From: Rhizobium sp. SG_E_25_P2
GTDB taxonomy: Bacteria; Pseudomonadota; Alphaproteobacteria; Rhizobiales; Rhizobiaceae
Direction: 5' to 3'
Assembly: GCF_029892285.1 (NCBI RefSeq)
Contig: NZ_JARXVM010000001.1
Coordinates: 310,001-374,000, forward strand
DNA: 64,000 bases
The notes beneath the pieces are model-generated. The model worked only from the letters and a program-made list of their open reading frames with translations, was not told where the DNA came from and did not search any database. Shown one piece after another: positions 11,093 to 56,394 of the stretch (position 1 is its first letter; every line of letters begins with the position of its first letter). Both the position numbers and the translations under genes were made by a program.

Positions 11093-11222
11093 GCATATCC
11101 CTCACACATAAAGAACGTTGATGATAATGATTAGAAACATTCGTTGGACTGATCAATAGGATTCTTTTTATCTAGAAAACATCAAAACAACAGCCGCCGG
11201 TCAGCCCGGCATGGAGAGTTCA

Positions 11223-11507
11223 ATGACAACGCGCGATACGATTGCCGGAAGCGCAGAGTCCGGCATAAAAATTTTTTTGCAGAACTGGACGGTACTCCCC
11301 TTGCGCGGCCTTGTGAAAACTTATCGGGCGTACAAAAACCGACGTACGATTGCGTCGATGCGCGATTTCGATGACGCGCAATTGGCCGATATCGGCTTGA
11401 GCCGTCGCGACATCGACAAGGCGCTGGATCTGGCGTTTCGGGACAATCCCTACGCGTCGTTGATTCAGGCGCGGGAACGGACGGCCCGGGGCCTGCGCCG
11501 CTTCTGA
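11223..11507 (+). CDS. DUF1127 domain small protein
   Basis: A 94-residue basic protein with a C-terminal DUF1127 (YjiS-like) motif: RTIASMRDFDDAQLADIGLSRRDI, followed by arginine-rich sequence. Arginine-rich DUF1127 proteins in rhizobia affect growth phase, phosphate or central carbon control, some through RNA interactions. The start is set at ATG 11223 because GGAG (11213-11216) lies six nt before it; an in-frame ATG at 11211 overlaps that ribosome-binding site. It is divergent from the LysR gene, so control by that regulator is likely, and it is followed by a strong terminator. Confidence 0.85.
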   Translation: MTTRDTIAGSAESGIKIFLQNWTVLPLRGLVKTYRAYKNRRTIASMRDFDDAQLADIGLSRRDIDKALDLAFRDNPYASLIQARERTARGLRRF

Positions 11508-11658: not shown

Positions 11659-12288
11659 TCAATTTTCGGTGCGGGCGAAGGCGGCCAATTGGGTTCTGAT
11701 CATGATCTTGTAGTCGGCAATGACTGCAGCGGATTCCTCCGGTCCCACCGAGAGCGCCAACCGCACCGCGCCGCTCGCCAATTGGAACATCAGGAACGTC
11801 ACCCGCTGGAACGCCTCGAATCGCTCCTCGGCGATAAAGGGACGCGCACTTTCACAGAATAGGTCGGCATGGCGGCGGGTAGCGGCGATATCGGCGCATT
11901 TGGAGCCCTTGTCGGCTTGCACGGCATTGACCATGTCGAGAATTGCGGGATCGGCGATGATGCGCTGATAATAGTAATCCAGCATGGCGACAGCGGCGTT
12001 GAAGATTTCCTCAAGGTTGCTCGCCTCGTCCAATCCGCTTTCGAGAACCGAATCGAGGTCCGCAATCCACTGATTGTGCAACATCGACACGATCGAGGAC
12101 TTGTTGGGAAAGTATTGATAGAGCGAAGATATGGGGCCACCGGCTAACGCTGCGATCTCGCGCATCTTCACCGCATCGATGCCCTTTTCGCCGATCAACT
12201 GTTTTGCGGCGACCAATATTTCCTCGACGCGCTCCCGGCTCCGGTCCTGTTTCGGAGAACGCCTCAAATTGGAATCCTGCTCCTGCAT
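11659..12288 (-). CDS. TetR/AcrR family transcriptional regulator
   Basis: A 209-residue TetR-type repressor. The helix-turn-helix lies at about residues 20-65, with KMREIAALAGGPISSLYQYFPNKSSI as recognition helix and the conserved YQYFPNK that ends the domain. The C-terminal ligand-binding part is variable. It is divergent from the MFS/flavoprotein/PLP/phosphatase cassette, which it very probably represses until an unknown ligand binds. The intergenic region of about 120 nt has a TTGACA box with a spaced TGACA/TGTCA repeat that could be its operator. Confidence 0.88.
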   Translation of the reverse strand: MQEQDSNLRRSPKQDRSRERVEEILVAAKQLIGEKGIDAVKMREIAALAGGPISSLYQYFPNKSSIVSMLHNQWIADLDSVLESGLDEASNLEEIFNAAVAMLDYYYQRIIADPAILDMVNAVQADKGSKCADIAATRRHADLFCESARPFIAEERFEAFQRVTFLMFQLASGAVRLALSVGPEESAAVIADYKIMIRTQLAAFARTEN

Positions 12289-12319
12289 GCCGCTGCGGCC
12301 TTTCCCTCTGCGCCCCTGC

Positions 12320-12344
12320 TTGACAAAAAGATGATCAACTGTCA
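12320..12344. promoter_or_regulatory. Possible TetR operator / promoter element
   Basis: TTGACA (12320-12325) resembles a -35 box, and TGACA (12321-12325) is repeated in inverted form as TGTCA (12340-12344). The pair sits between the divergent TetR and MFS genes. Symmetry is limited to 5-bp arms, so this is only a candidate. Confidence 0.3.
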
Positions 12345-12411
12345 GATTCTTTTATAAGGGGAATATAAATAAGACCAATTGAGCAATCCGCAACAAAAAG
12401 CAAGCGGGAGG

Positions 12412-13599
12412 ATGGTCGTGCAGAGTGGATATCGCTCGGCGCTGCGCCGGAGCCTGAAGACGTTGCTGCGAAGCAACCTCGCCCCCTCCATGGCGGTGGG
12501 CTCGATCGGCGCATTGTCTCTGGGATTGCAGCCGGTTCTGCTCGGCGGACTCTTCAGCGAGGGACGCGCGACATTCGATGAAATCGCCATCCTCGCCACC
12601 CTGGAAATGTTGGCCATCGGCCTGGGGTCGGCGATGTTGTCGGTTATCGGCGGCGCACGCTCGATGCGGGTCAAATCTTTCCTGCTTCTGGGACTTGCGG
12701 CTGCGGCGCATGCGGCGACAGCCTTTGCCCCGAGCCCTCTCTGGCTCATCCTTGTCAGGGTTTTCGCCGGATTCGTGGAGGGCGGGCTCATCGCGGTCGC
12801 GATCGAACTCATTGCCCGCAGCCAGACCCCCGGGCGCAATGGCGGCTGGTTCATCATCGTCCAGACGCTCGCCCAAAGCGCTGCGGCGGCTATCATAGCG
12901 CTCCTCGTCGCGCCCGCCTGGGGCTCCACGGGAAGCTTCCTGTTGCTGGCGGCCGCGACCCTGACCGGCCTGTTGGTCGCGCCGCGTCTTCTCGACGACT
13001 ACGGCCCGCTCTCGCCAGACGCTGCGCTTCACCCAACAGCGGTCATCGCGCTTGGCCCGGCGCTGGCGCTGCTGTCGATCTTCAGTCTCTATATGTTTAC
13101 CGGCGCGATCTGGGCGTTTCTGGAGCCGCTGGGCGCTCAGAACAATGTGCCCTCCGCCACTGTCGGCCTCATCGTGTCGGTGTCGCTGCTTGCGCAGGTC
13201 GCAGGGGCTCTGGCCGCCACCGCGCTTGAGCCGAAGATACCCTATGTCGGAATGTTGTCGTTTTGCGCGCTGACGGCTGTCGGCATCGCCTATGCCTTCA
13301 CCCAGGGCGTTTCCCTGCCGCTGTTCTGGCTATTGTCGCTCGCCGCCGGCTTCCTGCTGCTGTTTGTTACCCCCTGGCAGATCGCCATGACGGTGGCGGC
13401 GGACAGCACGCGTCGCACAGCGCTTCTGACGCCCGCCGCGCAACTGTTCGGCGGCGCGCTGGGGCCTGCTGGCGCCTCGTTTTTCGTCACCGGCGACGAC
13501 TTCAGGCCGATCGCGGTTTTCGCCGGGGCATCGGCGCTGGTCAGCCTGGTCCTGACACTATCCTTCGGCCTCACCCGATCCAGACACAGAGGAGTTTGA
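12412..13599 (+). CDS. MFS transporter
   Basis: A 395-residue, strongly hydrophobic protein with about twelve predicted membrane segments and a basic loop in the middle, as in major facilitator drug or sugar exporters. It is the first gene of the TetR-divergent cassette. The frame is open from TTG 12379, but GGGAGG at 12406-12411 sits directly before ATG 12412 and six nt before in-frame GTG 12418; that spacing makes GTG 12418 a serious alternative start. Substrate is unknown; the neighbouring oxidase and PLP enzyme suggest it moves the compound those enzymes handle or make. It is followed 4 nt later by the flavoprotein gene. Confidence 0.85.
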   Translation: MVVQSGYRSALRRSLKTLLRSNLAPSMAVGSIGALSLGLQPVLLGGLFSEGRATFDEIAILATLEMLAIGLGSAMLSVIGGARSMRVKSFLLLGLAAAAHAATAFAPSPLWLILVRVFAGFVEGGLIAVAIELIARSQTPGRNGGWFIIVQTLAQSAAAAIIALLVAPAWGSTGSFLLLAAATLTGLLVAPRLLDDYGPLSPDAALHPTAVIALGPALALLSIFSLYMFTGAIWAFLEPLGAQNNVPSATVGLIVSVSLLAQVAGALAATALEPKIPYVGMLSFCALTAVGIAYAFTQGVSLPLFWLLSLAAGFLLLFVTPWQIAMTVAADSTRRTALLTPAAQLFGGALGPAGASFFVTGDDFRPIAVFAGASALVSLVLTLSFGLTRSRHRGV

Positions 13600-13603
13600 C
13601 ACG

Positions 13604-14884
13604 ATGAATGCGCCGCAACCCTGGTCGAACTGGTCGGGCTATGTCACTGCGCGCCCGCAGCGCTTCGACACCCCGCGCACGGTCGAGGCGCTGCAGGACA
13701 TCGTGACATCGGCCCCAGGTCCCATCCGCGTCGTCGGCTCCGGGCATTCCTTCACACCGCTGGTCCCAAGCGAGGGAACGATCGTCTGCCTCGACCATAT
13801 CGAGGGTCTCGTATCCCACGACGCCGAGAACTGCCGGGCGACGGTGCGGGCAGGCACCAAACTCGGCGCTCTCACACGCATTCTAGACGGGGTCGACCAG
13901 GCGCTCGCCAATATGGGCGACATCGACAAGCAGTCGATCGGCGGGGCGCTCGGCACCGCCACCCATGGCACGGGCTCGACGCTGGGCGCCTATCACACGC
14001 TGCTCCACAAGGTGGAACTCATCGATGGGCGCGGGCAACGCCGCGTCTTCACCCGCGATGCGGACGGCGACATGATGAACGCCATCGGCGTCAGCCTCGG
14101 CGCCTTCGGCATCCTGAGCGAGGTGACGCTCAACAATCTGCCGACCTATCGCATGCGCAAACGACGCTGGGTGCTGCCCATCGGCGACATGATCGCCAAT
14201 TTCCATTCGATGATGACGGCCCATCGCTCGGCGGAGTTTTATTTCGTGCCCTATTCCGGCCATGCGATGTTTCTCGCCAGCGACATCACCGACGAGCCGG
14301 CGACATCAAGGCCGCCTGAGGATGACGAGGACGGATTGAAAACCCTGAAACTGGCGCGCAACCTGTTGAAGTGGTTTCCCTGGCTCCGCCGCAAGCTGAT
14401 TTCAGACGCGATGCGCAAACTGCCCCGCGAAGACTTCGTTGAAAACTGGCTAAAAGTGTATACGAGCGACAGGCAGACCCGCTTCAACGAGATGGAGTAT
14501 CATCTGCCGGTTGAGGAGGGGCCAAAAGCCTTGGCTGAGATCATAAACCTCACCGAAAAACATTTTCCGGAGGTCTATTTCCCAATGGAAGTGCGTATGG
14601 TCGGCGCCGACGACATCTGGCTCAGCCCGTTCTACAAGCGGCAGACCTGCTCGATCGCCATTCATCATGACGCCGCCGAAGACCCCATTGCCTTCCAGCG
14701 CGCCGCTGAACCGATCTTCCGCCGCTATGGCGGCAGACCGCATTGGGGCAAGATGCATACGCTGACCGGCGCCGATTTCGCAAAGCTCTATCCCCGCTGG
14801 AAAGATGCGATGGACGTGCGGCGCATGCTCGATCCCGACGGACGGTTCGTGTCGCCTTACATCAAGCGGCTGATCGAGACATGA
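13604..14884 (+). CDS. FAD-linked aldonolactone oxidase-like protein (D-arabinono-1,4-lactone oxidase family)
   Basis: A 426-residue flavoprotein of the vanillyl-alcohol oxidase superfamily. RVVGSGHSFTP places H48 in the GSGHS motif that binds FAD covalently in gulonolactone and arabinonolactone oxidases. HWGK at residues 380-383 matches the HWxK motif of the aldonolactone oxidoreductase C-terminal domain. Relatives oxidise aldonolactones or alditols using oxygen or another acceptor. GGAG upstream at about nine nt supports the start. Its stop overlaps the start of the PLP enzyme gene in an ATGA, so the two are coupled. Rhizobia are not known for ascorbate synthesis by this route, so the physiological substrate is an open question. 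Confidence 0.88.
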   Translation: MNAPQPWSNWSGYVTARPQRFDTPRTVEALQDIVTSAPGPIRVVGSGHSFTPLVPSEGTIVCLDHIEGLVSHDAENCRATVRAGTKLGALTRILDGVDQALANMGDIDKQSIGGALGTATHGTGSTLGAYHTLLHKVELIDGRGQRRVFTRDADGDMMNAIGVSLGAFGILSEVTLNNLPTYRMRKRRWVLPIGDMIANFHSMMTAHRSAEFYFVPYSGHAMFLASDITDEPATSRPPEDDEDGLKTLKLARNLLKWFPWLRRKLISDAMRKLPREDFVENWLKVYTSDRQTRFNEMEYHLPVEEGPKALAEIINLTEKHFPEVYFPMEVRMVGADDIWLSPFYKRQTCSIAIHHDAAEDPIAFQRAAEPIFRRYGGRPHWGKMHTLTGADFAKLYPRWKDAMDVRRMLDPDGRFVSPYIKRLIET

Positions 14885-16044
14885 ACGACGCGCCCTATTT
14901 CGCGTCCCTCGGCCGCGCTTTGGCGGAGGCCGGTCGATATCAGCCGACGCTTGTCATCGATCGCGACCGGCTGGACGCCAATGCCGATATCGTGGCGCGC
15001 AGGAAGCCGCCAGAGCGAGCCTTGCGACTGGTCGACAAGTCGCTTGCGGTTCCCGAACTTCTAGCGCGACTTATGACGCGGCTGCAGACCAACAAAGTGA
15101 TGAGCTTTCATCTGCCCATTGCCCGGGCCGTCCTCGCGGCGCATGCCAATGTGGAGATCCTGTTCGGCAAACCGATGCCGACAGCGGCGCTCCGACAGGC
15201 GCTTGCACATGCGACGACATTGGAGCGGCAAGCGCTCAGCCTCAGGACCGTGCATCTCGTCGACAGCGCCGAACGCCTGGCCGCATATGCAGAGCTTGCC
15301 GCTTCATTGGACATCGACTTGCGCGTCGCCGCCGAAATCGATGTGGGGATGCATCGTGGCGGGTTTTCCTCTCCCGAGGCGCTGAGGTCTGCCTTCGCCG
15401 CGCGACGGAACAGCCGCATCCGCTTGGAAGGCGTGATGGGCTATGAAGCCCATATCGCCAAAATTCCCGGCTTTGTCGGCGGCGCGACCGGCGAACGCGC
15501 CCGGGTGCTTGACCGGTACAAGGCCTTCGTCGCCGTGCTCTCGCCGGACGAACACAGGATCCTCAACATCGGCGGCAGCAACACCGCGCTCGGCTATGGC
15601 CCCGATCTCGCCACTGAGATCTCCATGGGGTCGGCTTTCCTGAAGCCAACGGATTTCGACAGCAAAGAACTCACCGAACTCGCCCCAGCCCTGTTCATCG
15701 CCACGCCGATCCTCAAGCGCGTCACGGCGCAGCTGCCCGGCCCGTCCTTTCTGACCAAACTGATGCAGACGCTCGGCAAGTTTCCGCGCGAAGGCTGTTT
15801 TCTCTATGGCGGCAAATGGATGGCGACCGCTGTCCATCCTCCAGGTATGCGGGAAAATCTGCTCTGGGGGCACAGCTCCAACCAGCAATTCATGGCGCTG
15901 CCGGATGGCTCGCCAGTTCGGGAAGGCGATTTCGCCTTTCTCCGGCCGAGCCAGAGCGAAGCGGTGCTGCAGCAATTTGGCGCAATCGCGGTTTACTCGG
16001 ACGGGCGGATCGTCGAAGACTGGATGCCATTGCCACCAGGCTGA
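14881..16044 (+). CDS. Fold-type III PLP enzyme (alanine racemase/DSD1-like, 'amino acid deaminase/aldolase')
   Basis: A 387-residue protein with the alanine-racemase-like TIM barrel followed by a D-serine dehydratase-like C-terminal domain. LRLVDKSLAVPEL near residues 49-60 places K53 where the PLP-binding lysine is expected, and LNIGGSNTALGYG is a phosphate-binding glycine-rich loop. The family includes D-threonine aldolase and D-serine dehydratase. The closest annotation class, as I recall it, is amino acid deaminase/aldolase, which in Actinobacteria also sits beside an arabinonolactone oxidase gene. The frame is open further upstream, but ATG 14881 overlapping the previous stop is the natural start. 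The reaction is not known. Confidence 0.85.
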   Translation: MNDAPYFASLGRALAEAGRYQPTLVIDRDRLDANADIVARRKPPERALRLVDKSLAVPELLARLMTRLQTNKVMSFHLPIARAVLAAHANVEILFGKPMPTAALRQALAHATTLERQALSLRTVHLVDSAERLAAYAELAASLDIDLRVAAEIDVGMHRGGFSSPEALRSAFAARRNSRIRLEGVMGYEAHIAKIPGFVGGATGERARVLDRYKAFVAVLSPDEHRILNIGGSNTALGYGPDLATEISMGSAFLKPTDFDSKELTELAPALFIATPILKRVTAQLPGPSFLTKLMQTLGKFPREGCFLYGGKWMATAVHPPGMRENLLWGHSSNQQFMALPDGSPVREGDFAFLRPSQSEAVLQQFGAIAVYSDGRIVEDWMPLPPG

Positions 16045-16062
16045 ACATTCCGAAAGACATCC

Positions 16063-16728
16063 ATGAGCGTCACCATCGCCATCGGCGACATACACGGTTG
16101 CCTCACCGAACTCGACAATCTTCTCGATCTGATTGATTTTGCTTATCAAGCTGGCACGATCATCTTTCTTGGCGACTATGTCGATCGCGGCCCCGACAGC
16201 GCCGGCGTTGTCAGACGGGTCATGAACGGGCCGCAATCTCCGGACTGGCGCTGGATCGCGCTCATGGGCAATCACGAGCGCCTGATGGTCGATGCGTTAG
16301 CAGGAGACGATGAGAACGGCTTCTGGCTACACAATGGTGGCGAGGAAACGCTTCAGTCCTATCGCGGCCGCGTGCCCGCAGAACATCTGCTCTGGCTCAG
16401 GCAACTGCCTTTGATCCACGTCGATGCTTATCGTATCTTTGCCCATGCGGGCCTGGACCGCAGGCTCGAGTTGGACATGCAAACCGAACAGACACTGCTC
16501 TGGCGCAGACCGCAGCCGGAGGACGATGATGGTGATTTTTTCGGCCGGCACTTTTGCCACGGCCACACACCGCGCGATGAGAACCCCATCACGCGCGGCC
16601 AACGCAGCAATATTGACAGCGGTTGCGTGTTTGGCGATCGCCTGACGGCGGCCGTCTTCGATGACGCCGTCCCCGGCGGTCCGACGCGTTTTCTGAGCGT
16701 TGACAGCCGCTATCGCTGGAAGGCTTAG
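16063..16728 (+). CDS. PPP-family metallophosphoesterase
   Basis: A 221-residue phosphatase with the complete PPP/ApaH signature: GDIHGC (residues 8-13), GDYVDRG, GNHE, a HAG motif, and CHGHT near the C-terminus. These hold two metal ions. Relatives dephosphorylate serine/threonine phosphoproteins or hydrolyse diadenosine tetraphosphate; the sequence does not say which. It is the last gene of the TetR-divergent cassette, 18 nt after the PLP enzyme gene, so it may remove a phosphate from a pathway intermediate. Its stop overlaps the stop of the convergent acyl-CoA ligase gene by 4 nt. Confidence 0.85.
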   Translation: MSVTIAIGDIHGCLTELDNLLDLIDFAYQAGTIIFLGDYVDRGPDSAGVVRRVMNGPQSPDWRWIALMGNHERLMVDALAGDDENGFWLHNGGEETLQSYRGRVPAEHLLWLRQLPLIHVDAYRIFAHAGLDRRLELDMQTEQTLLWRRPQPEDDDGDFFGRHFCHGHTPRDENPITRGQRSNIDSGCVFGDRLTAAVFDDAVPGGPTRFLSVDSRYRWKA

Positions 16729-18425
16729 CTCCGCAATTCCTTCCGGAGGATCTTGCCGACATTGGATTTCGGCAGGTTGTCACGGAATTCGATATATTTG
16801 GGCCGCTTGTAATTCGTTAGCCGAGACGCACAATACTCCTTGATGTCCGCCGCCGTGAGATCCGGGTTCTTGCGCACCACGAACAGTTTCACCGCCTCGC
16901 CTGAATGCTCGTCCGGCACGCCGATCACGGCGGCTTCAAGAATGCCGGGATGTGAGGCGACCACCTCTTCCACTTCATTCGGATAGACGTTGAAGCCGGA
17001 GACGATCACCATATCCTTCTTGCGGTCGACAATGCGGATATAGCCGTTTTCATCCATCACGCCCATGTCGCCCGAGCGGAAGAAGCCATCCGGCGTCATC
17101 ACATTGGCGGTTTCCTCCGGCTTGTTCCAATAGCCGGACATCACCTGCGGGCCGCGGATGCAGATCTCTCCGACCACGCCGAGTGGAACCTGTCTGCCAT
17201 CGTCGTCCTGGATCTGGATATCGGTTGAGGGCAGCGGCAGGCCGATCGTGCCGGTGAAGGAGCCGGCGTCGAGACGGTTGACGGTGGCGATCGGCGAGGT
17301 CTCGGACAAACCATAGCCTTCGGAGATCGGGCAACCGGTCACCGCCTGCCAGCGTTCGGCCACCGGCCTCTGGCAGGCCATGCCGCCGGCCAGGCTGAGG
17401 ATGAGGTTCGAGAAGTCGAGCTTCTTGAACTCCTCATTGTTGACCAGGGCGTTGAACAGCGTGTTGAGGCCTGGAAAGACATGGATCTTTTCCGAACGCA
17501 GCACCTTCACAAAGGCTGGAATGTCGCGCGGATTGGGTATCAGCACATTGCGCGCCACTTCCTTCATGCCCATGACCAGATTCACGGTGAGCGCAAAGAT
17601 ATGATAGAGCGGCAATGGGCAGATAAAGGTGAAATCCTCTGGCTTGTTGGCGCGCCGATAGAGAACCGACAGCCAGACCGCAGTCTGTTCGGCATTGGCG
17701 AGAATATTGCCATGCGTCAGCACCGCGCCTTTGGCGACGCCCGTCGTGCCGCCGGTATATTGCAGAAACGCAACATCGGAGGCACTGACGCTTTCAGGCC
17801 GGAAGCGCAGGCCTTGCGCTTCCGCGAGCAGGGTCTTGAACGGTACATGGCCCGGCAAGGTCCAGAGCGGCACGAGTTTCTTGACCTTGCGCACCACGAA
17901 ATTGACGAGATGGCCTTTCAGGCCGAGCAGATCGCCCATGGTGGCGACGACCACGGTCTCCACGCCCGTTCCGGGCAGGGACTGTTGCACGGTCGCAGCG
18001 AAATTCTCGAGCGTGAACAGCAGTTTGGCGCCGGCGTCCTTGAGTTGATAATTCAACTCGCGCGGCGTGTAGAGCGGATTGACGTTAACGGCCACATAGC
18101 CTGCCCGCAACACCGCCAGCGCGACCACGGGAAATTGCAGGATATTGGGAAACATGATCGCGACGCGGTCGCCGCGCTGCAGGCCCTTTTGCTGCAGCCA
18201 GGCCGCGACCTGGCGCGAAAGCCTGTCGATATCACCGAAACTCAGCGTCTTGCCCATGCAGGTATAGGCAGGTTTATGGCCGTTGCGGCTCACGACGTCT
18301 TCGAACAAATCCCCAAGCGAGGCATGTTTCAAAGGCTGGATCTCGGACGGAACGCCCTCCGGATAGGACTTGAGCCATGGCTTGTCGCCTGGCATAGGCT
18401 GCAAGCTCGAATCGAATGCATTCAT
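16725..18425 (-). CDS. fadD: Long-chain fatty acid-CoA ligase
   Basis: A 566-residue ANL-superfamily enzyme that activates fatty acids to acyl-CoA through an acyl-adenylate. YTGGTTGVAKGAVLTHGN is the AMP/phosphate-binding P-loop, GYGLSETSP the adenylate-forming motif, and SGDMGVMDENGYIRIVDRKKDM spans the hinge. PKSNVGKILRKELR carries the catalytic lysine. Length and order match FadD. It is divergent from a lactonase gene, and the shared 151-nt spacer has a LiuR-like palindrome, so it is probably derepressed during growth on fatty or branched-chain acids. Confidence 0.92.
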   Translation of the reverse strand: MNAFDSSLQPMPGDKPWLKSYPEGVPSEIQPLKHASLGDLFEDVVSRNGHKPAYTCMGKTLSFGDIDRLSRQVAAWLQQKGLQRGDRVAIMFPNILQFPVVALAVLRAGYVAVNVNPLYTPRELNYQLKDAGAKLLFTLENFAATVQQSLPGTGVETVVVATMGDLLGLKGHLVNFVVRKVKKLVPLWTLPGHVPFKTLLAEAQGLRFRPESVSASDVAFLQYTGGTTGVAKGAVLTHGNILANAEQTAVWLSVLYRRANKPEDFTFICPLPLYHIFALTVNLVMGMKEVARNVLIPNPRDIPAFVKVLRSEKIHVFPGLNTLFNALVNNEEFKKLDFSNLILSLAGGMACQRPVAERWQAVTGCPISEGYGLSETSPIATVNRLDAGSFTGTIGLPLPSTDIQIQDDDGRQVPLGVVGEICIRGPQVMSGYWNKPEETANVMTPDGFFRSGDMGVMDENGYIRIVDRKKDMVIVSGFNVYPNEVEEVVASHPGILEAAVIGVPDEHSGEAVKLFVVRKNPDLTAADIKEYCASRLTNYKRPKYIEFRDNLPKSNVGKILRKELRS

Positions 18426-18517
18426 TGTTTCCTCCCAGCGCTATTTTGACATCCTGCGCTCTCCTCGACAGGATGTTAATCGCCTTTGCTCCTCACGCAA
18501 GCAAAGACTAGTTTACA

Positions 18518-18533
18518 TTGACGTAAACGTCAA
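18518..18533. promoter_or_regulatory. LiuR-like palindromic operator
   Basis: TTGACGT and ACGTCAA flank a 2-nt AA spacer, a perfect 7-2-7 inverted repeat. It resembles the operator of the MerR-family regulator LiuR, which governs branched-chain amino acid and fatty acid degradation genes in proteobacteria. It lies 93 nt upstream of fadD and 44 nt upstream of the lactonase start, so it could control both. No liuR gene is in the window. Confidence 0.7.
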
Positions 18534-18576
18534 CGCGCAGCTGACAGGCGCTCGCGTTTCACGATCGGAAAAGCTG

Positions 18577-19629
18577 ATGACCCTGGAATCCCATCTGTTG
18601 ATTTGCTGCGCCTCGTCAAGCGAAGGCATGCTCGCGCTTCATCGGTTTGGCGGCGCGGCGGAGACGTTTACCCTTGCGGCCAACCCATCATTCCTGGCCG
18701 CGTCCGAGAAGACGCAAACGATCTACGCGGCCAGCGAAAGACCTGCAGGCCCAGGCCTTGTGACGCCGCTTGACCTTGGGGCGAACAGGCTGTCGGCCCG
18801 CACAGCGCAATCGACTGGCGGACACGCCGCCGTGCACCTCTGCCTTGACCGCACCGAACGCTTTCTGTTCGTCGCCAATTACCAAGCGGCGCGTGCGCCA
18901 GGGGACGCCTCGCTCACTGCCTTCGCACTTGTGGACGGCGGCGACCTCTCCGGCCCCATCGCTCATTTCGCGCATCAAGGCAGCGGTCCGGATCACGGGC
19001 GTCAAGAAGGGCCGCATTGCCACTGTGTCGCTATCAGCCCCGACAACCGCCGGCTCGTCGCTGTCGACCTCGGGGCCGACAGGCTGTTTTCCTACGCTTT
19101 TGATGCTCAGGCAGGCAGCCTGCGAAGCGACCGCGAAACAGAAACGCCAGCGGGCGCCGGTCCGCGCCATGCCGTGTTTCATCCCAATGGCCGCATGCTC
19201 TATGTGACAGGGGAGCTGGATTCGACGCTTCTGGCTTTTTCGGTGAGCGATGATTGCCTGAGGCTGACGACCGGAACGCCGGCCACACAGCGCAAGGCCG
19301 ACAGTCGGAACTATCCATCCGGCATCCTGGTCACGCCTGATGGCCATCACCTGCTGGTCGCAAATCGTGGCGCCGATACGATCGCGGTGTTCTGGCTCGA
19401 TCCGCGCAGCGGCCTTCCGACGCTGAAGGCCGAATATGATTGCGGCGGCGCCTTTCCGCGCGCCATCCGCTTCGACCGCGCCGCGCGGCGGCTGGCTGTC
19501 GCCAATCAAAAATCCGATGGCGTCGCGCTGTTTGACTGGGATTTCGCCGAAGGAAAGCTATCGGCGGAGCCCACCGAGATCGTTTCGGTGAAAGCTCCGC
19601 TCGACATGCTGTTCGTCGATCTTCAGTAA
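18577..19629 (+). CDS. Lactonase family beta-propeller protein (6-phosphogluconolactonase-like)
   Basis: A 350-residue protein related to YbhE-type lactonases, seven-bladed beta-propellers that open 6-phosphogluconolactone or other lactones. Repeated blade motifs include FVANYQAA, GPHCHCVAISPDNR, GPRHAVFHPNGR and LLVANRGADTIAVF. The H-C-H segment and GPRHAVFHP are conserved in the family. The start is set at ATG 18577 because GGAA sits six nt before it; the open frame further upstream covers the palindrome at 18518-18533. The 3' end overlaps the convergent dehydrogenase gene by 7 nt. Whether it serves sugar catabolism or another lactone is not decidable here. Confidence 0.82.
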   Translation: MTLESHLLICCASSSEGMLALHRFGGAAETFTLAANPSFLAASEKTQTIYAASERPAGPGLVTPLDLGANRLSARTAQSTGGHAAVHLCLDRTERFLFVANYQAARAPGDASLTAFALVDGGDLSGPIAHFAHQGSGPDHGRQEGPHCHCVAISPDNRRLVAVDLGADRLFSYAFDAQAGSLRSDRETETPAGAGPRHAVFHPNGRMLYVTGELDSTLLAFSVSDDCLRLTTGTPATQRKADSRNYPSGILVTPDGHHLLVANRGADTIAVFWLDPRSGLPTLKAEYDCGGAFPRAIRFDRAARRLAVANQKSDGVALFDWDFAEGKLSAEPTEIVSVKAPLDMLFVDLQ

Positions 19630-22217: not shown

Positions 22218-22221
<4 letters not shown>

Positions 22222-22718
22222 CGTATGAGATCCTTGAGAATGGCGGCCAAAGTCGGCGCATCGGGCCGGATCACCGGCGCTGGCATCAGCGCGATGCCGG
22301 TTAGGGGATGAATGACGGGCTCGCCGGTCTGGATACCCTCGTCCTGCGTCAAAAAATGCGAACAGCCGGCCTGCATCGCGGTGGCGACATGGATGGCGTC
22401 GGGCAACTTGAGCGACCGGCGCGCGGCGCGGAGAGCGGCGGCCAAGTCTAGAACTTGCTCGGACACTGGAACGACCGAGAGCCAGTAACTGCCCGACCTC
22501 AGTCCTGCATAAAACTGGGCCGCTGCAAGTGCGCGTTCTCGATAGGGCTTAACCAGCAACTCCGAAAAAGTCAGCGCGCTGGTGAGAAACCGGGGAGCGG
22601 TCTCCGACCGGCGATGTCCCGCGATCATCTCGCGCAGAGCATCGCCTTTTTCGAACTCGTCTTCGAGAAACGCGATCAAGATGTTGGTGTCGAAATACAC
22701 CAGCGGGAACAAGGTCAT
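22218..22718 (-). CDS. PIN-domain toxin (VapC-like)
   Basis: A 166-residue PIN-domain ribonuclease. The acidic active-site set is visible: D10 in VYFDTNIL, E53 in LTFSELLV, D107 in LPDAIHVATA and D126 in LTQDEG. VapC toxins cut tRNA or rRNA and are held inactive by the partner antitoxin. The gene overlaps the upstream antitoxin gene by 4 nt and the downstream yejF by 4 nt, so three genes are coupled in series. It is somewhat longer than a typical VapC because of a C-terminal tail from about residue 140. Confidence 0.85.
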
Positions 22719-22978
22719 TCCTCATCCCATTCATCGCGCAGGGCCCTGATGTCAGCCACCGCGTCTCTTAGAGACCTGGGTTCTTTCAGCGAGGCTCTTG
22801 CTTGCTGCAGCGTCGCCCAGAAATCCTCACCCTCGCCACGCGCCAACGGGGCATTCTCCGACTGTCGAGCTGCGCCCTCCTCGATCACCAGCCGCACCGT
22901 CTCCACCCCCGGAAACTGCGCGCGCAGGTCCTCGGGCAATTGCGAGACGGGATAGTGCTCGCGCACGATCTTGTTCAT
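22715..22978 (-). CDS. Antitoxin partner of the PIN toxin
   Basis: An 87-residue acidic protein beginning MNKIVREHYPVSQLPEDL. It lies immediately upstream of the PIN gene with a 4-nt overlap, the standard order of type II toxin-antitoxin pairs. The N-terminal half could form a small DNA-binding domain and the C-terminal half (residues 55-87, rich in acidic residues and ending DEWDEE) would wrap the toxin, but no named family is certain. The frame stays open upstream to 23068, inside yejE; ATG 22978 is chosen because the sequence from there resembles antitoxins of this layout. Confidence 0.72.
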   Translation of the reverse strand: MNKIVREHYPVSQLPEDLRAQFPGVETVRLVIEEGAARQSENAPLARGEGEDFWATLQQARASLKEPRSLRDAVADIRALRDEWDEE

Positions 22979-23042
22979 CGGCGGCCTCCTGGTCTGGACC
23001 GCGCCAACACTAAGGCCAAAACCCTGGGAAAGCGAGATCCCC

Positions 23043-24173
23043 TCATCCGAAGGTCTTTCGCGGGTCAAAGGCGTCGCGCACCGCTTCGCCGATGAAGATC
23101 AGCAGCGACAGCATGGCGGCCAGCGTGAAGAAAGCGGTGAAGCCCAGCCAGGGAGCCTGCAGGTTCGACTTTGCCTGGCCGACCATTTCCCCCAGCGAGG
23201 GCGAACCCGGCGGCATGCCGAGCCCAAGGAAATCGAGCGCCGTCAACGTGCTGATCGATCCCGACAGGATAAAGGGCAGAAAGGTCAGCGTCGCCACCAT
23301 GGCGTTGGGCAGAAGATGCCGCCACATGATCACGGCGTTACCGACGCCGAGCGCGCGGGCGGCCCGGACATATTCGAAATTGCGGGCGCGGAAGAATTCC
23401 GCCCTGACAATGCCGACGAAACTCGTCCAGGAAAACAACAGCAGAATGCCGAGCAGAACAAAAAAGCCGGGCGGCAGGATCGAAGCCATGATCAGCAGGA
23501 TGTAGAGCACCGGCATCGACGACCAGATCTCGATGAAGCGCTGGCCGATCAGGTCCGTCAATCCGCCGAAATAGCCCTGCACCGCGCCGATGGCGACGCC
23601 GATCACGGCCGAGGCCGCCGTCAGCGCCAGACCGAACAATACCGACAGCCGGAAGCCATAGATGATCCGGGCGAACACATCGCGGGCCTGATCGTCGGTG
23701 CCCAGCCAGTTCATGTTGCCCAGCGTGCAATTGGGGTCCTTGTCGGCGAGCGGATAGGCCGAGCAGCGCTGCTCTTCCGGCATCAGCCAGAAGGGCCTGG
23801 TCGGGGCCGAGGTCGGCACGAATGTGTTGGCGGTCAGATAGGAATAGCGGATCGGCGGCCAGATCATCCAGCCGTTTTCGTCGATCTTCTCGCGCACCAG
23901 GTCGGTCTTGTAATCAGTGGTCGGCAGGAAGCCTTCATCGCCGAGAAAGACCGCCTCCTCGTAATCCCTGAGGATGGGAACGTAGAATTCGCCCTTGAAC
24001 GACACCAGGATCGGCCGGTCATTGGCAATGACTTCGGCGAACAACGAGAGGCCGAAGATCAGCATGAAGATCCAGAACGACCAGTAGCCGCGCCGGTTCG
24101 CCTTGAAATTGGCGAGACGCCGCTGGTTGACGGGCGTGAGCCAGGGTTTCTTGGTTGCCACGGCCATGATCAC
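23043..24173 (-). CDS. yejE: Yej peptide transporter, permease
   Basis: A 376-residue inner-membrane permease of the binding-protein-dependent family. The EAA-type cytoplasmic loop [30 protein letters not shown] contacts the ATPase. [23 protein letters not shown] is the family's conserved entry segment, and there are about six membrane helices. It pairs with YejB to form the channel. Its start overlaps the yejB stop by 4 nt. In the canonical operon yejF follows directly; here a toxin-antitoxin pair intervenes after a 64-nt gap. Confidence 0.92.
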
Positions 24174-54897: not shown

Positions 54898-56394
54898 TTA
54901 TTTCATCGTCGGCATGACGAATTCGGCGCCATCCTTGATGCCCGAGGGCCAGCGGCTGGTGACCGTCTTGGTGCGGGTCCAGAACTTGATGGAATCCGTG
55001 CCGTGCTGGTTGAGGTCGCCGAAGGACGAGGACTTCCAGCCGCCGAAGGAGTGGTAGGCGAGCGGAACCGGGATCGGCACGTTGACGCCGACCATGCCGA
55101 TATTGATGCGCGAAGCGAAATCGCGGGCGGCATCGCCGTCGCGGGTGTAGATGGCGACGCCATTGCCATATTCATGCTTCATCGGCAGGTCGAGCGCTTC
55201 TTCATAGGTCTTGGCGCGCACGACCGAGAGGACGGGTCCGAAGATTTCGGTCTTGTAGATGTCCATGTCGGGCGTGACGTTGTCAAACAGGCAGCCGCCG
55301 ACGAAGTAACCGTTTTCATAGCCCTGCAGCTTGAAATCGCGGCCATCGACGACGAGCTTGGCGCCGGCCTCGACGCCGCTGTCGATCAGGCCGAGAATGC
55401 GGTCGCGCGCTTCCTTGGTGATGACGGGACCCATATCGGCCTTGTCATCGGTATAGGGGCCGATGCGCAGCGATTCCACCATCGGCGTCAGCTTTTCGAT
55501 CAGGCGGTTGGCGGTGTCTTCGCCAACGGGAACAGCCACCGAGATCGCCATGCAGCGTTCGCCGGCCGAACCGTAGCCCGCACCCATCAGCGCGTTGGCG
55601 GCCTGGTCGAGATCGGCGTCCGGCATAATGATCATGTGATTCTTGGCGCCGCCGAAGCACTGAGCGCGCTTGCCGTTCATTGCCGCCGTGCCATAGACAT
55701 AGCGGGCGATCGGGGTCGAGCCGACAAACGAGATCGCGCTGATATCGGCATGGGTGAGCAGGCCGTCGACGGCCGACTTGTCGCCATTGACGACGTTGAG
55801 AATGCCGGCCGGCAGACCAGCCTCGATCATCAGTTCAGCCAGACGGATCGGCACGGACGGGTCGCGCTCTGACGGCTTCAGGATGAAGGCGTTGCCGCAG
55901 GCGATGGCCGGCGCAAACATCCACATCGGGATCATGGCCGGGAAGTTGAACGGCGTGATGCCTGCGCCGATGCCGACAGCCTGGCGGATCGAGTACATGT
56001 CGATATTGGGGCCTGCGCCTTCGGTAAACTCGCTCTTGGAGAGATGCGGAATGCCGATGACGAATTCGCACACTTCAAGGCCGCGCACGATGTCGCCCTT
56101 GGCGTCTTCAATGGTCTTGCCATGCTCGGAGGACAGGAGAGCGGCAAGCTCATCCATGTTGTCGTTGAGCAGCTGCACGAATTTCATGAACACGCGGGCG
56201 CGGCGCTGCGGGTTGGTCGCGGCCCATTTGGGCTGCGCCGCCTTGGCGTTCTCGACGGCGGCGTTCAGTTCTTCAGCGCTGGCAAGCGAGACTTCCGCCT
56301 GGATTTCGCCGGTGGCGGGGTTGAAGACGCCCTGTTTGCGGCCCGAAGTTCCGGCGACCTGCTTGCCGCCAATGAAATGTCCGATCTGACGCAT
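54898..56394 (-). CDS. mmsA: Methylmalonate-semialdehyde dehydrogenase (CoA-acylating)
   Basis: A 498-residue aldehyde dehydrogenase, the normal length for MmsA/IolA. It converts methylmalonate semialdehyde to propionyl-CoA, or malonate semialdehyde to acetyl-CoA, in valine and inositol breakdown. GITPFNFPAMIPMW binds NAD and AGERCMAISVAVP has the catalytic cysteine. Propionyl-CoA would feed the PccB enzyme encoded at the right edge. GGAGGA six nt before ATG 56394 fixes the start. A palindrome lies 51-70 nt upstream. Confidence 0.92.
   Translation of the reverse strand: MRQIGHFIGGKQVAGTSGRKQGVFNPATGEIQAEVSLASAEELNAAVENAKAAQPKWAATNPQRRARVFMKFVQLLNDNMDELAALLSSEHGKTIEDAKGDIVRGLEVCEFVIGIPHLSKSEFTEGAGPNIDMYSIRQAVGIGAGITPFNFPAMIPMWMFAPAIACGNAFILKPSERDPSVPIRLAELMIEAGLPAGILNVVNGDKSAVDGLLTHADISAISFVGSTPIARYVYGTAAMNGKRAQCFGGAKNHMIIMPDADLDQAANALMGAGYGSAGERCMAISVAVPVGEDTANRLIEKLTPMVESLRIGPYTDDKADMGPVITKEARDRILGLIDSGVEAGAKLVVDGRDFKLQGYENGYFVGGCLFDNVTPDMDIYKTEIFGPVLSVVRAKTYEEALDLPMKHEYGNGVAIYTRDGDAARDFASRINIGMVGVNVPIPVPLAYHSFGGWKSSSFGDLNQHGTDSIKFWTRTKTVTSRWPSGIKDGAEFVMPTMK

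Follow-up and report, generated by a model that had tools for sequence, protein, structure and literature searches.

A TetR-linked oxidase and PLP enzyme cassette of Rhizobium: kinship with SphC and SphD and a predicted role in sphingoid-base breakdown

Introduction

Which pathway would bring together a major facilitator superfamily (MFS) transporter, a flavoprotein oxidase, a pyridoxal 5′-phosphate (PLP) enzyme and a metallophosphatase behind a divergent TetR gene? The question is raised by a cassette in a 64,000-nucleotide stretch of Rhizobium sp. SG_E_25_P2 (contig NZ_JARXVM010000001.1, positions 310,001 to 374,000; hereafter the window), which belongs to a 5.56 Mb genome of 99.5% completeness. 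Sphingosine-type lipids are natural antibacterials of plants and animals, and a sphingoid base is a 2-amino-1,3-diol. A first-pass annotation, made from the sequence alone, was aware of no pathway with this set of activities; for the oxidase and the PLP enzyme this overlooked sphBCD of Pseudomonas aeruginosa. By kinship and gene order the cassette is assigned here to the SphC/SphD type, of which it appears to be a cytoplasmic TetR/MFS variant. Its function is proposed by homology and context.

Breakdown of sphingosine by this kind of route has been investigated chiefly in Pseudomonas. In P. aeruginosa, sphBCD belongs to the sphingosine-induced SphR regulon, and a two-step sphingosine route, still unproven, was proposed for Pseudomonas in 2014 (PMC3900636). 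DiGianivittorio et al. (2025) found sphBC to be required both to metabolize sphingosine and to grow with sphinganine or phytosphingosine, its sufficiency remaining unproven; Alphaproteobacteria are among their co-occurrence hits, and Caulobacter was tested (PMC11893366). The parts of PMC11893366 consulted do not describe a rhizobial TetR/MFS form, and a rhizobial copy is described nowhere in the open-licence literature searched by title and abstract opening.

Kinship with SphC and SphD

A protein search of annotated plasmids returned 5 records for the PLP enzyme and 113 records with a relative of the oxidase, a member of the aldonolactone/alditol oxidase family (hereafter ALO). One P. aeruginosa plasmid record lists cytochrome c5, ALO, PLP enzyme, transporter and sphR in this order; from the gene order and the published description of PA5328–PA5326, these genes are sphB, sphC, sphD, sphA and sphR (PMC3900636, PMC5150637). 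Over its full length the window PLP enzyme is 37% identical to SphD (393 aligned positions), and the window ALO is 38% identical to SphC (432 aligned positions), also over its full length.

Both phylogenies place the window proteins with their Pseudomonas counterparts. The PLP tree (34 rows) joins the window enzyme and SphD in a group of 21 set against 13 others (support 100/100, branch length 2.92), and the ALO tree (31 rows) unites the window oxidase and SphC in a clade of 19 (support 100/97). In both trees the SphC/SphD group is separate from other ALO–PLP pairs. Within the PLP tree the proteins of the window and of Rhizobium sp. FKL33 are sisters, and the inner forks on the SphD side are partly weak (81/81, 83/65).

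When the 113 plasmid records are ranked by ALO, the top four (38–41% identity) are the four with an SphD-type gene. The fifth PLP record, a Nocardia plasmid, gives a partial match (28.5%), and its ALO relative lies far off in the same record. On the Eleftheria plasmid the ALO and PLP genes overlap, and the genes listed next to them do not include one for cytochrome c; the Yoonia plasmid carries both within one stretch in non-adjacent positions. SphR-like AraC genes occur near the copies of Agrobacterium vitis, Phyllobacterium and R. wuzhouense.

Linkage of the oxidase and the PLP enzyme

Three samples were compared; G and L numbers denote their genomes and loci. The first comprised the window genome and 60 relatives, and the second 297 genomes drawn from the same order. 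The third was a contig scan, in which 92 PLP relatives led to 80 retained loci (L010–L089); its named near group (L010–L044) holds 35 loci with a PLP identity of 38–82%, two of them in one Phyllobacterium genome and all found via the PLP enzyme. Several genomes are common to the first and third samples.

Full-length-type PLP homologues occur in 7 of the 61 genomes of the first sample; the G002 copy has a broken frame, and G036 adds a weak eighth match (E 7e-4, 26%). An ALO gene adjoins the PLP gene in 6/6 relatives with such a homologue. In the second sample a PLP match at E ≤ 0.001 was found in 18/297 genomes, strong in 7 (E ≤ 1e-60) and weak or a short fragment in the other 11. ALO was detected in 8 genomes (E ≤ 1e-60), among them each of the 7 in which the PLP match is strong, and there the two genes are adjacent on the same strand. 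Throughout the near group the ALO gene lies directly 5′ of the PLP gene (35/35), accompanied by a divergent TetR gene in 21 loci, an MFS gene in 22 (partial in L032, in two pieces in L011), a phosphatase gene in two (L010, L011) and fadD in three (L010, L011, L021). These counts are lower bounds because some contigs end nearby (L018, L023, L043). Among the 45 more distant loci (L045–L089, PLP identity 21–31%), ALO is nearby in 26. The ALO–PLP pairing is more than chance and recurs across families and orders. The expectation of the first-pass annotation that the four families co-occur thus holds for ALO and PLP, which stand side by side wherever the PLP enzyme is found, and often extends to MFS and TetR; the phosphatase hardly ever takes part.

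This linkage bears on a role in detoxification only, in which the ALO would inactivate the base while the PLP enzyme had a separate role or repaired a by-product, with no carbon gain. Such a role would agree with the dispensability of sphD in P. aeruginosa and with the species that carry sphBC alone (PMC11893366), as well as with the relative G006, where ALO occurs without PLP. The constant pairing in loci found via the PLP enzyme and the 4-nucleotide overlap of the two genes in the window, as in one path, argue against it, and we regard it as improbable.

Some copies appear broken. In L011 (Rhizobium sp. G21; also L004/L009), whose cassette in other respects closely resembles that of the window, the TetR, MFS and PLP genes are each split in two, through either decay or error-prone assembly. 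C-terminal fragments of PLP genes in two further genomes (G172:C1:1180407-1180538, 44 residues, 68%; G105:C34:281085-281183, 33 residues, 64%) look as if they were remnants of lost cassettes.

The flavoprotein oxidase

The window ALO reaches 601.6 bits with TIGR01679 (NCBIfam, cut-off 292.25) and 181 with the sugar 1,4-lactone oxidase family TIGR01678, whose cut-off is 397. The GSGHS (H48) and HWGK (380–383) motifs reported in the first-pass annotation are both present. H48, E329, R331 and K383 are kept in 16/16 aligned ALO proteins; we take H48 to be the histidine that links flavin adenine dinucleotide (FAD), and the E-x-R pair and the lysine to be catalytic, as in alditol oxidase. As this conservation spans both groups of ALO–PLP pairs, it shows competence, not substrate. 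Alditol oxidase prefers 1,2- or 1,3-diols and over-oxidizes them to acids (PMC4513209).

The first-pass annotation envisaged an undescribed route that combines a sugar lactone or alditol, a D-amino acid, phosphate removal and export. The Pfam name of the flavoprotein, D-arabinono-1,4-lactone oxidase, and a lactonase-type β-propeller gene beyond fadD (Table 1) would suit this route. The ALO groups with SphC, as the PLP enzyme does with SphD, and stands apart from remoter ALO relatives; the lactonase gene stays beside fadD in L108 and L109, where ALO and PLP are lacking; and the phosphatase is unlinked outside close kin. We consider the route very unlikely. As a first choice, a sugar-lactone or alditol pathway was discarded on the grouping of the ALO with SphC and the lipid-like context of several copies.

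The location of the enzyme was assessed from its N-terminus. The window ALO (MNAPQPWSNWSG) starts 8 residues before the NWSG motif, the MFS gene ends 4 nucleotides upstream, and no signal peptide was seen in it. Across L010–L042 (33 loci) an in-frame stop lies at most 29 codons 5′ of the matched ALO start in 15 loci (by eye), which leaves little space for a signal. In 15 of the other 18 an ATG is similarly close (by eye), and three are open (L029, L031, L042). No cytochrome c gene was seen 5′ of ALO in the same 33 loci, with up to 1.5 kb scanned (only 244 nucleotides in L023); CXXCH occurs upstream only in L015 and L039, both times inside the span of the MFS match. With so little space for a signal, and with cytochrome c genes unseen in the stretches scanned, we expect the rhizobial form to reside in the cytoplasm and to pass its electrons to a different acceptor.

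The PLP enzyme

The lysine K53 proposed in the first-pass annotation is present, is invariant in 34/34 aligned rows and lines up with the canonical PLP lysine of PF14031 proteins. The fold assignment is borne out by the Pfam match (Ala_racemase_N) and by the structural model (pLDDT 91.1, pTM 0.89), in which a fold-III barrel holds the catalytic lysine. With Foldseek, query TM-scores of 0.67–0.73 were obtained to 3wqf, 4pb5, 7yqa, 4v15 and 6qkb; the best hits are D-threo-3-hydroxyaspartate dehydratase, D-threonine aldolases, β-hydroxyaspartate aldolase and D-serine dehydratase, with alanine racemases interspersed. The top ranks of a profile search were taken by D-3-hydroxyaspartate aldolase and three D-threonine aldolases. 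The enzyme is therefore predicted to be a D-2-amino-3-hydroxy-acid aldolase, close to the D-amino or hydroxyamino acid that the first-pass annotation had guessed as substrate.

The metal site differs from that of the canonical enzymes. The H-x-C metal ligands of six canonical PF14031 proteins from relatives align without gaps with Q358-x-E360 under three MAFFT settings; in the D-threonine aldolase of A. xylosoxidans the metal site contains His347 and Asp349 (PMC4401734). Q-S-E is found in 23/34 rows and K-x-G in 11/34; the rows were divided by this motif, and the tree concurs for the shared rows. Furthermore, the segment 284–303 (window numbering) is 17–21 residues long and partly hydrophobic in the Q-S-E rows, and 7–9 residues long in the others. 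The Q-x-E site and the longer segment may be adaptations to a long-chain substrate of erythro configuration. At E ≤ 1, PF14031 matched none of the 34 members. A search of the window genome for PF14031 proteins gave no match (a control was positive in 2/14), so the SphD-type enzyme has no detected canonical counterpart there.

Lipid-related neighbours

Neighbour genes were clustered over 39 loci (the near group and four plasmid loci). A FadL/TodX-type outer-membrane gene is found in 8/35 near-group loci (three of A. vitis, one of A. rubi, four of Phyllobacterium), with Pfam checks in three of the eight (L022, L037, L042). A gene of the aldehyde dehydrogenase (Aldedh) family lies no more than about 2 kb from the cassette in 13/35 loci, divided between an aldehyde dehydrogenase cluster (L018, L019, L020, L022, L037, L038, L039, L041) and a second, more divergent one (L023, L029, L031, L033, L036); six of the 13 calls were checked (L018, L019, L029, L031, L036, L037). 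Seven loci with an Aldedh-cluster gene farther away were not counted (L014, L015, L027, L028, L030, L034, L040). The 8 and 13 loci are non-independent, as few lineages supply them. As a background from one genome only, the window genome has a single FadL-type match in 5.56 Mb, on contig C2 away from the cassette, and 33 Aldedh matches. One of the Aldedh-family genes falls inside the window, with 39 kb between it and the cassette (Table 1). A ceramidase search gave 0 matches, as did its control.

These neighbours help to weigh whether the same chemistry serves another 2-amino-1,3-diol or amino alcohol, such as a smaller plant or fungal compound, in which case the sphingoid link of Pseudomonas would not be transferable. 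An identity of 37–38% permits a shift of substrate, a related ALO–PLP pair occurs in Bacillota, Bacteroidota, Chloroflexota and others (the 26 of 45 distant loci), and orthology is deemed hard to assess by the authors of PMC11893366. A long-chain hydrophobic substrate is suggested instead by the genes for FadL-type proteins and aldehyde dehydrogenases in the vicinity of several rhizobial copies, and by the partly hydrophobic 17–21-residue segment of the SphD group. Another substrate of this kind seems unlikely to us, though less so than the two alternatives discussed above.

A proposed route for sphingoid bases

We favour a cassette that takes up, breaks down and detoxifies sphingoid bases in the cytoplasm. 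It is quite likely that the substrate is a sphingoid base (sphingosine, sphinganine or phytosphingosine); the mechanism below we hold to be reasonably probable and, given the dispensability of sphD in Pseudomonas, we go no further. The analysis establishes the protein families, the operon-like order of the genes, the ALO–PLP linkage, the kinship with SphC and SphD and the predicted fold; the substrate, the reactions, the direction of transport and the regulation we infer as follows.

The TetR protein would bind an operator in the divergent promoter region and keep the operon repressed until released by a sphingoid base or a product of it. The MFS protein would carry the base across the inner membrane, possibly as an importer. 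The SphC-type flavoprotein is then predicted to oxidize the C1 hydroxyl, probably twice as in alditol oxidase, to give a 2-amino-3-hydroxy fatty acid; the electrons would pass to O2 or to another acceptor that is not a cytochrome. By the Cahn–Ingold–Prelog rules, C1 oxidation of (2S,3R)-sphingosine would yield a (2R,3R), D-configured acid of the D-allo-threonine type; such a product would account for the pairing of the oxidase with a D-type PLP enzyme of fold III instead of an L-threonine aldolase. The PLP enzyme would cleave this D-2-amino-3-hydroxy acid to glycine and a fatty aldehyde. Lastly, an aldehyde dehydrogenase encoded outside the cassette would act, followed by FadD and β-oxidation.

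Several points weigh against this proposal. The identity to SphC and SphD is only 37–38%, and no substrate evidence was found for a rhizobial copy. In Pseudomonas, sphD is dispensable for growth of P. aeruginosa with sphingosine, the product could not be identified and SphC has not been proven to act on sphingosine directly; deletion of sphBC had little or no effect in Caulobacter and P. fluorescens WCS365, and Caulobacter sphBC gave no significant complementation (PMC11893366). The one AraC gene near a rhizobial copy that was tested is 34% identical to SphR; it belongs to a large family, and we treat the match as weak. Within the PLP enzyme, the canonical metal ligands of D-threonine aldolase and D-serine dehydratase are replaced, and for the D-threonine aldolase of A. 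xylosoxidans the preferred diastereomer is the other one, syn (PMC4401734). Two genomes carry an oxidase without its partner: G006, from the same genus, has TetR, ALO, a 3-hydroxyisobutyrate dehydrogenase-type gene and the phosphatase without PLP, and G239 of the second sample has a distant ALO (35%) and no PLP match. FadL and Aldedh neighbours were not seen near most copies, including that of the window, whose cassette has no aldehyde dehydrogenase gene. In addition, fadD gives one strong match in 10/10 relatives, with or without the cassette, which makes its adjacency weak evidence.

A stronger claim would be that rhizobia possess a complete cytosolic route for sphingoid bases that needs neither kinase nor lyase, in which a flavoenzyme forms a D-erythro 2-amino-3-hydroxy fatty acid and an aldolase, fitted by its altered Q-x-E metal site for the erythro diastereomer and a long chain, releases glycine and fatty aldehyde from it. 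We put this forward tentatively, with slightly less than even confidence. If true, rhizobia could disarm and feed on root-released phytosphingosine. Phytosphingosine has been reported from wheat root exudate and is lethal to Agrobacterium tumefaciens and Rhizobium radiobacter at micromolar concentrations (PMC8776846); the proposal suggests how plant-associated bacteria might cope with it. The rhizobial pair, predicted to be cytoplasmic and to have no cytochrome partner, should be easier to purify and assay, which would make the pathway directly testable.

Layout of the locus and accessory genes

The five genes lie where the first-pass annotation had placed them, in agreement with the open reading frame coordinates (Table 1). 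The layout is operon-like: the rightward MFS, ALO, PLP and phosphatase genes are separated by gaps of 4, −4 and 18 nucleotides, and the TetR gene faces them from the opposite strand. For the MFS gene the start is ambiguous (TTG 12379, the earlier, or GTG 12412). The ends of the phosphatase gene (+) and fadD (−) overlap by 4 nucleotides, which the first-pass annotation had missed. By PLP identity, the nearest named loci are those of Rhizobium sp. FKL33 (82%, L010) and G21 (76%, L011).

Table 1. Features of the cassette and of other genes in the window discussed in the text
Feature	Position	Strand	Basis and remarks
DUF1127 small gene	11211..11507	+	kept beside the TetR gene in relatives
TetR/AcrR-family regulator, 209 aa	11659..12288	-	open reading frame; TetR_N + TetR_C_22 (Pfam); divergent from operon
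Putative operator TTGACA-N6-TGAYC-NAN-TGTCAG, inverted TGACA/TGTCA	12320..12345	+	in the TetR–MFS gap; predicted function
MFS transporter, 395 aa from GTG 12412	12412..13599	+	MFS_1 (Pfam)
FAD-linked oxidase (ALO), aldonolactone/alditol oxidase family, SphC-type	13604..14884	+	FAD_binding_4 + ALO, TIGR01679
PLP enzyme, fold type III, SphD-type, K53	14881..16044	+	Ala_racemase_N; predicted D-2-amino-3-hydroxy-acid aldolase
PPP-type metallophosphatase, ApaH/PrpA-like	16063..16728	+	Metallophos; accessory, adjoins cassette in close relatives only
fadD, long-chain acyl-CoA ligase	16725..18425	-	convergent neighbour; PRK07059 957 bits vs cut-off 869; general gene, predicted downstream step
Lactonase-type β-propeller gene	18370..19629		beyond fadD
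PIN-domain gene	22218..22718	-	toxin-antitoxin-like pair
Small partner upstream of PIN-domain gene	22715..23068	-	no Pfam family
Aldedh-family gene	54961..56346	-	39 kb from cassette

The operator pattern was derived from the window, L010, L011 and L021. It has a sole zero-mismatch match in the 5.56 Mb genome, the next best having 2 mismatches, and a wider TetR regulon was dismissed for lack of a second good site. Among the 21 TetR-bearing loci, the pattern is exact 5′ of ALO in L010, L011 and L021, has 1 mismatch in L013 and 3 in L016 and L024, and is unconvincing in the remaining 15 (at least 4 mismatches). Kinship of the MFS protein with solved transporters was also abandoned: no PDB chain was matched by phmmer at E ≤ 10 or by a profile of 11 relatives at E ≤ 1.

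The phosphatase contains GDIHG, GDYVDRG and GNHE, which we take to be the PPP signature noted in the first-pass annotation. Relatives of at least 59% identity occur in 4/61 genomes, namely the window genome, G002, G004 and G006 (3/60 related genomes), and relatives of 41–44% in three more, a distribution that speaks against phosphate removal as a step of the pathway. We know of no PPP enzymes that act as lipid phosphatases. A core part for the phosphatase, for example on a sphingoid-base phosphate, was set aside on its presence in 2/35 loci and 4/61 genomes. Likewise, fadD, convergent in the window, L010, L011 and L021, was rejected as a cassette gene, as the 10 relatives have it regardless of the cassette.

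The order LysR – DUF1127 – TetR – ... – fadD – lactonase is common to the window, FKL33 (L010, where the DUF1127 gene was unscored), R. setariae (L113/L021), G005 and G006, and its interior varies. R. setariae has ALO–PLP without MFS or phosphatase, followed by a 3-hydroxyisobutyrate dehydrogenase-type gene; G005 keeps TetR and the latter gene without ALO and PLP. In G007 the TetR–MFS–ALO–PLP cassette lies about 25 kb from fadD, of the whole arrangement G003 has just fadD and the lactonase gene, and G011 shows fadD only. The cassette has thus been gained, lost and trimmed in the genus, and the phosphatase, MFS and fadD are non-fixed parts. The 3-hydroxyisobutyrate dehydrogenase-type gene is found at the cassette site in three relatives of the genus (L107:6453-7337 and L109:2662-3537, both with a Pfam scan, and the L003:555-1673 region), even in the absence of ALO and PLP, and is not part of the window cassette.

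Farther along the window, the PIN-domain gene and its small partner sit between the permease and ATPase genes of an oligopeptide-type ABC transporter. The pair has same-place matches in G003 and G006 and none in G001, G005 and G007 (E 1e-10).

Comparison with known systems

The window ALO shares the FAD-histidine motif, E-x-R and the HWGK residues with TIGR01679 and the Streptomyces alditol oxidase (2vfr, listed as xylitol oxidase); it is predicted to act on a lipid amino diol instead of a polyol. The PLP enzyme shares the predicted fold and the PLP lysine with D-threonine aldolase, D-3-hydroxyaspartate aldolase and D-serine dehydratase, but it has no PF14031 match and Q358-x-E360 takes the place of H-x-C.

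A second type of ALO–PLP pair is found among the distant loci, for example in Gottfriedia, Paenibacillus, Arthrobacter and Burkholderia. The same two families are adjacent, but the PLP gene comes first in 24/26, the proteins form separate clades, K-x-G replaces Q-x-E (11 aligned rows) and the 284–303 segment is short.

The likeness to sphBCD of P. aeruginosa lies in the ALO gene followed by the PLP gene on one strand, in the sequence identity and in the common clade of both trees. SphC is exported by twin-arginine translocation (PMC11893366), whereas the window ALO has neither a signal sequence nor a preceding cytochrome c gene; TetR and MFS stand where Pseudomonas has SphR, an AraC regulator, and SphA, a porin; and the phosphatase gene and fadD adjoin the window cassette.

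The megaplasmid of Ruegeria pomeroyi, with the order TetR – cytochrome c – ALO – PLP – DUF819, shares with the window the TetR gene, the ALO–PLP overlap and a PLP enzyme of 43.5% identity; it differs in its cytochrome c gene, its DUF819 protein instead of MFS and its TetR gene on the same strand. The oxidases of Ruegeria and Yoonia have twin-arginine-like N-termini (by eye) and a cytochrome c gene, both lacking in the window. An SphB-like cytochrome c gene with an exported oxidase may therefore mark a variant of the SphC/SphD system, not the type.

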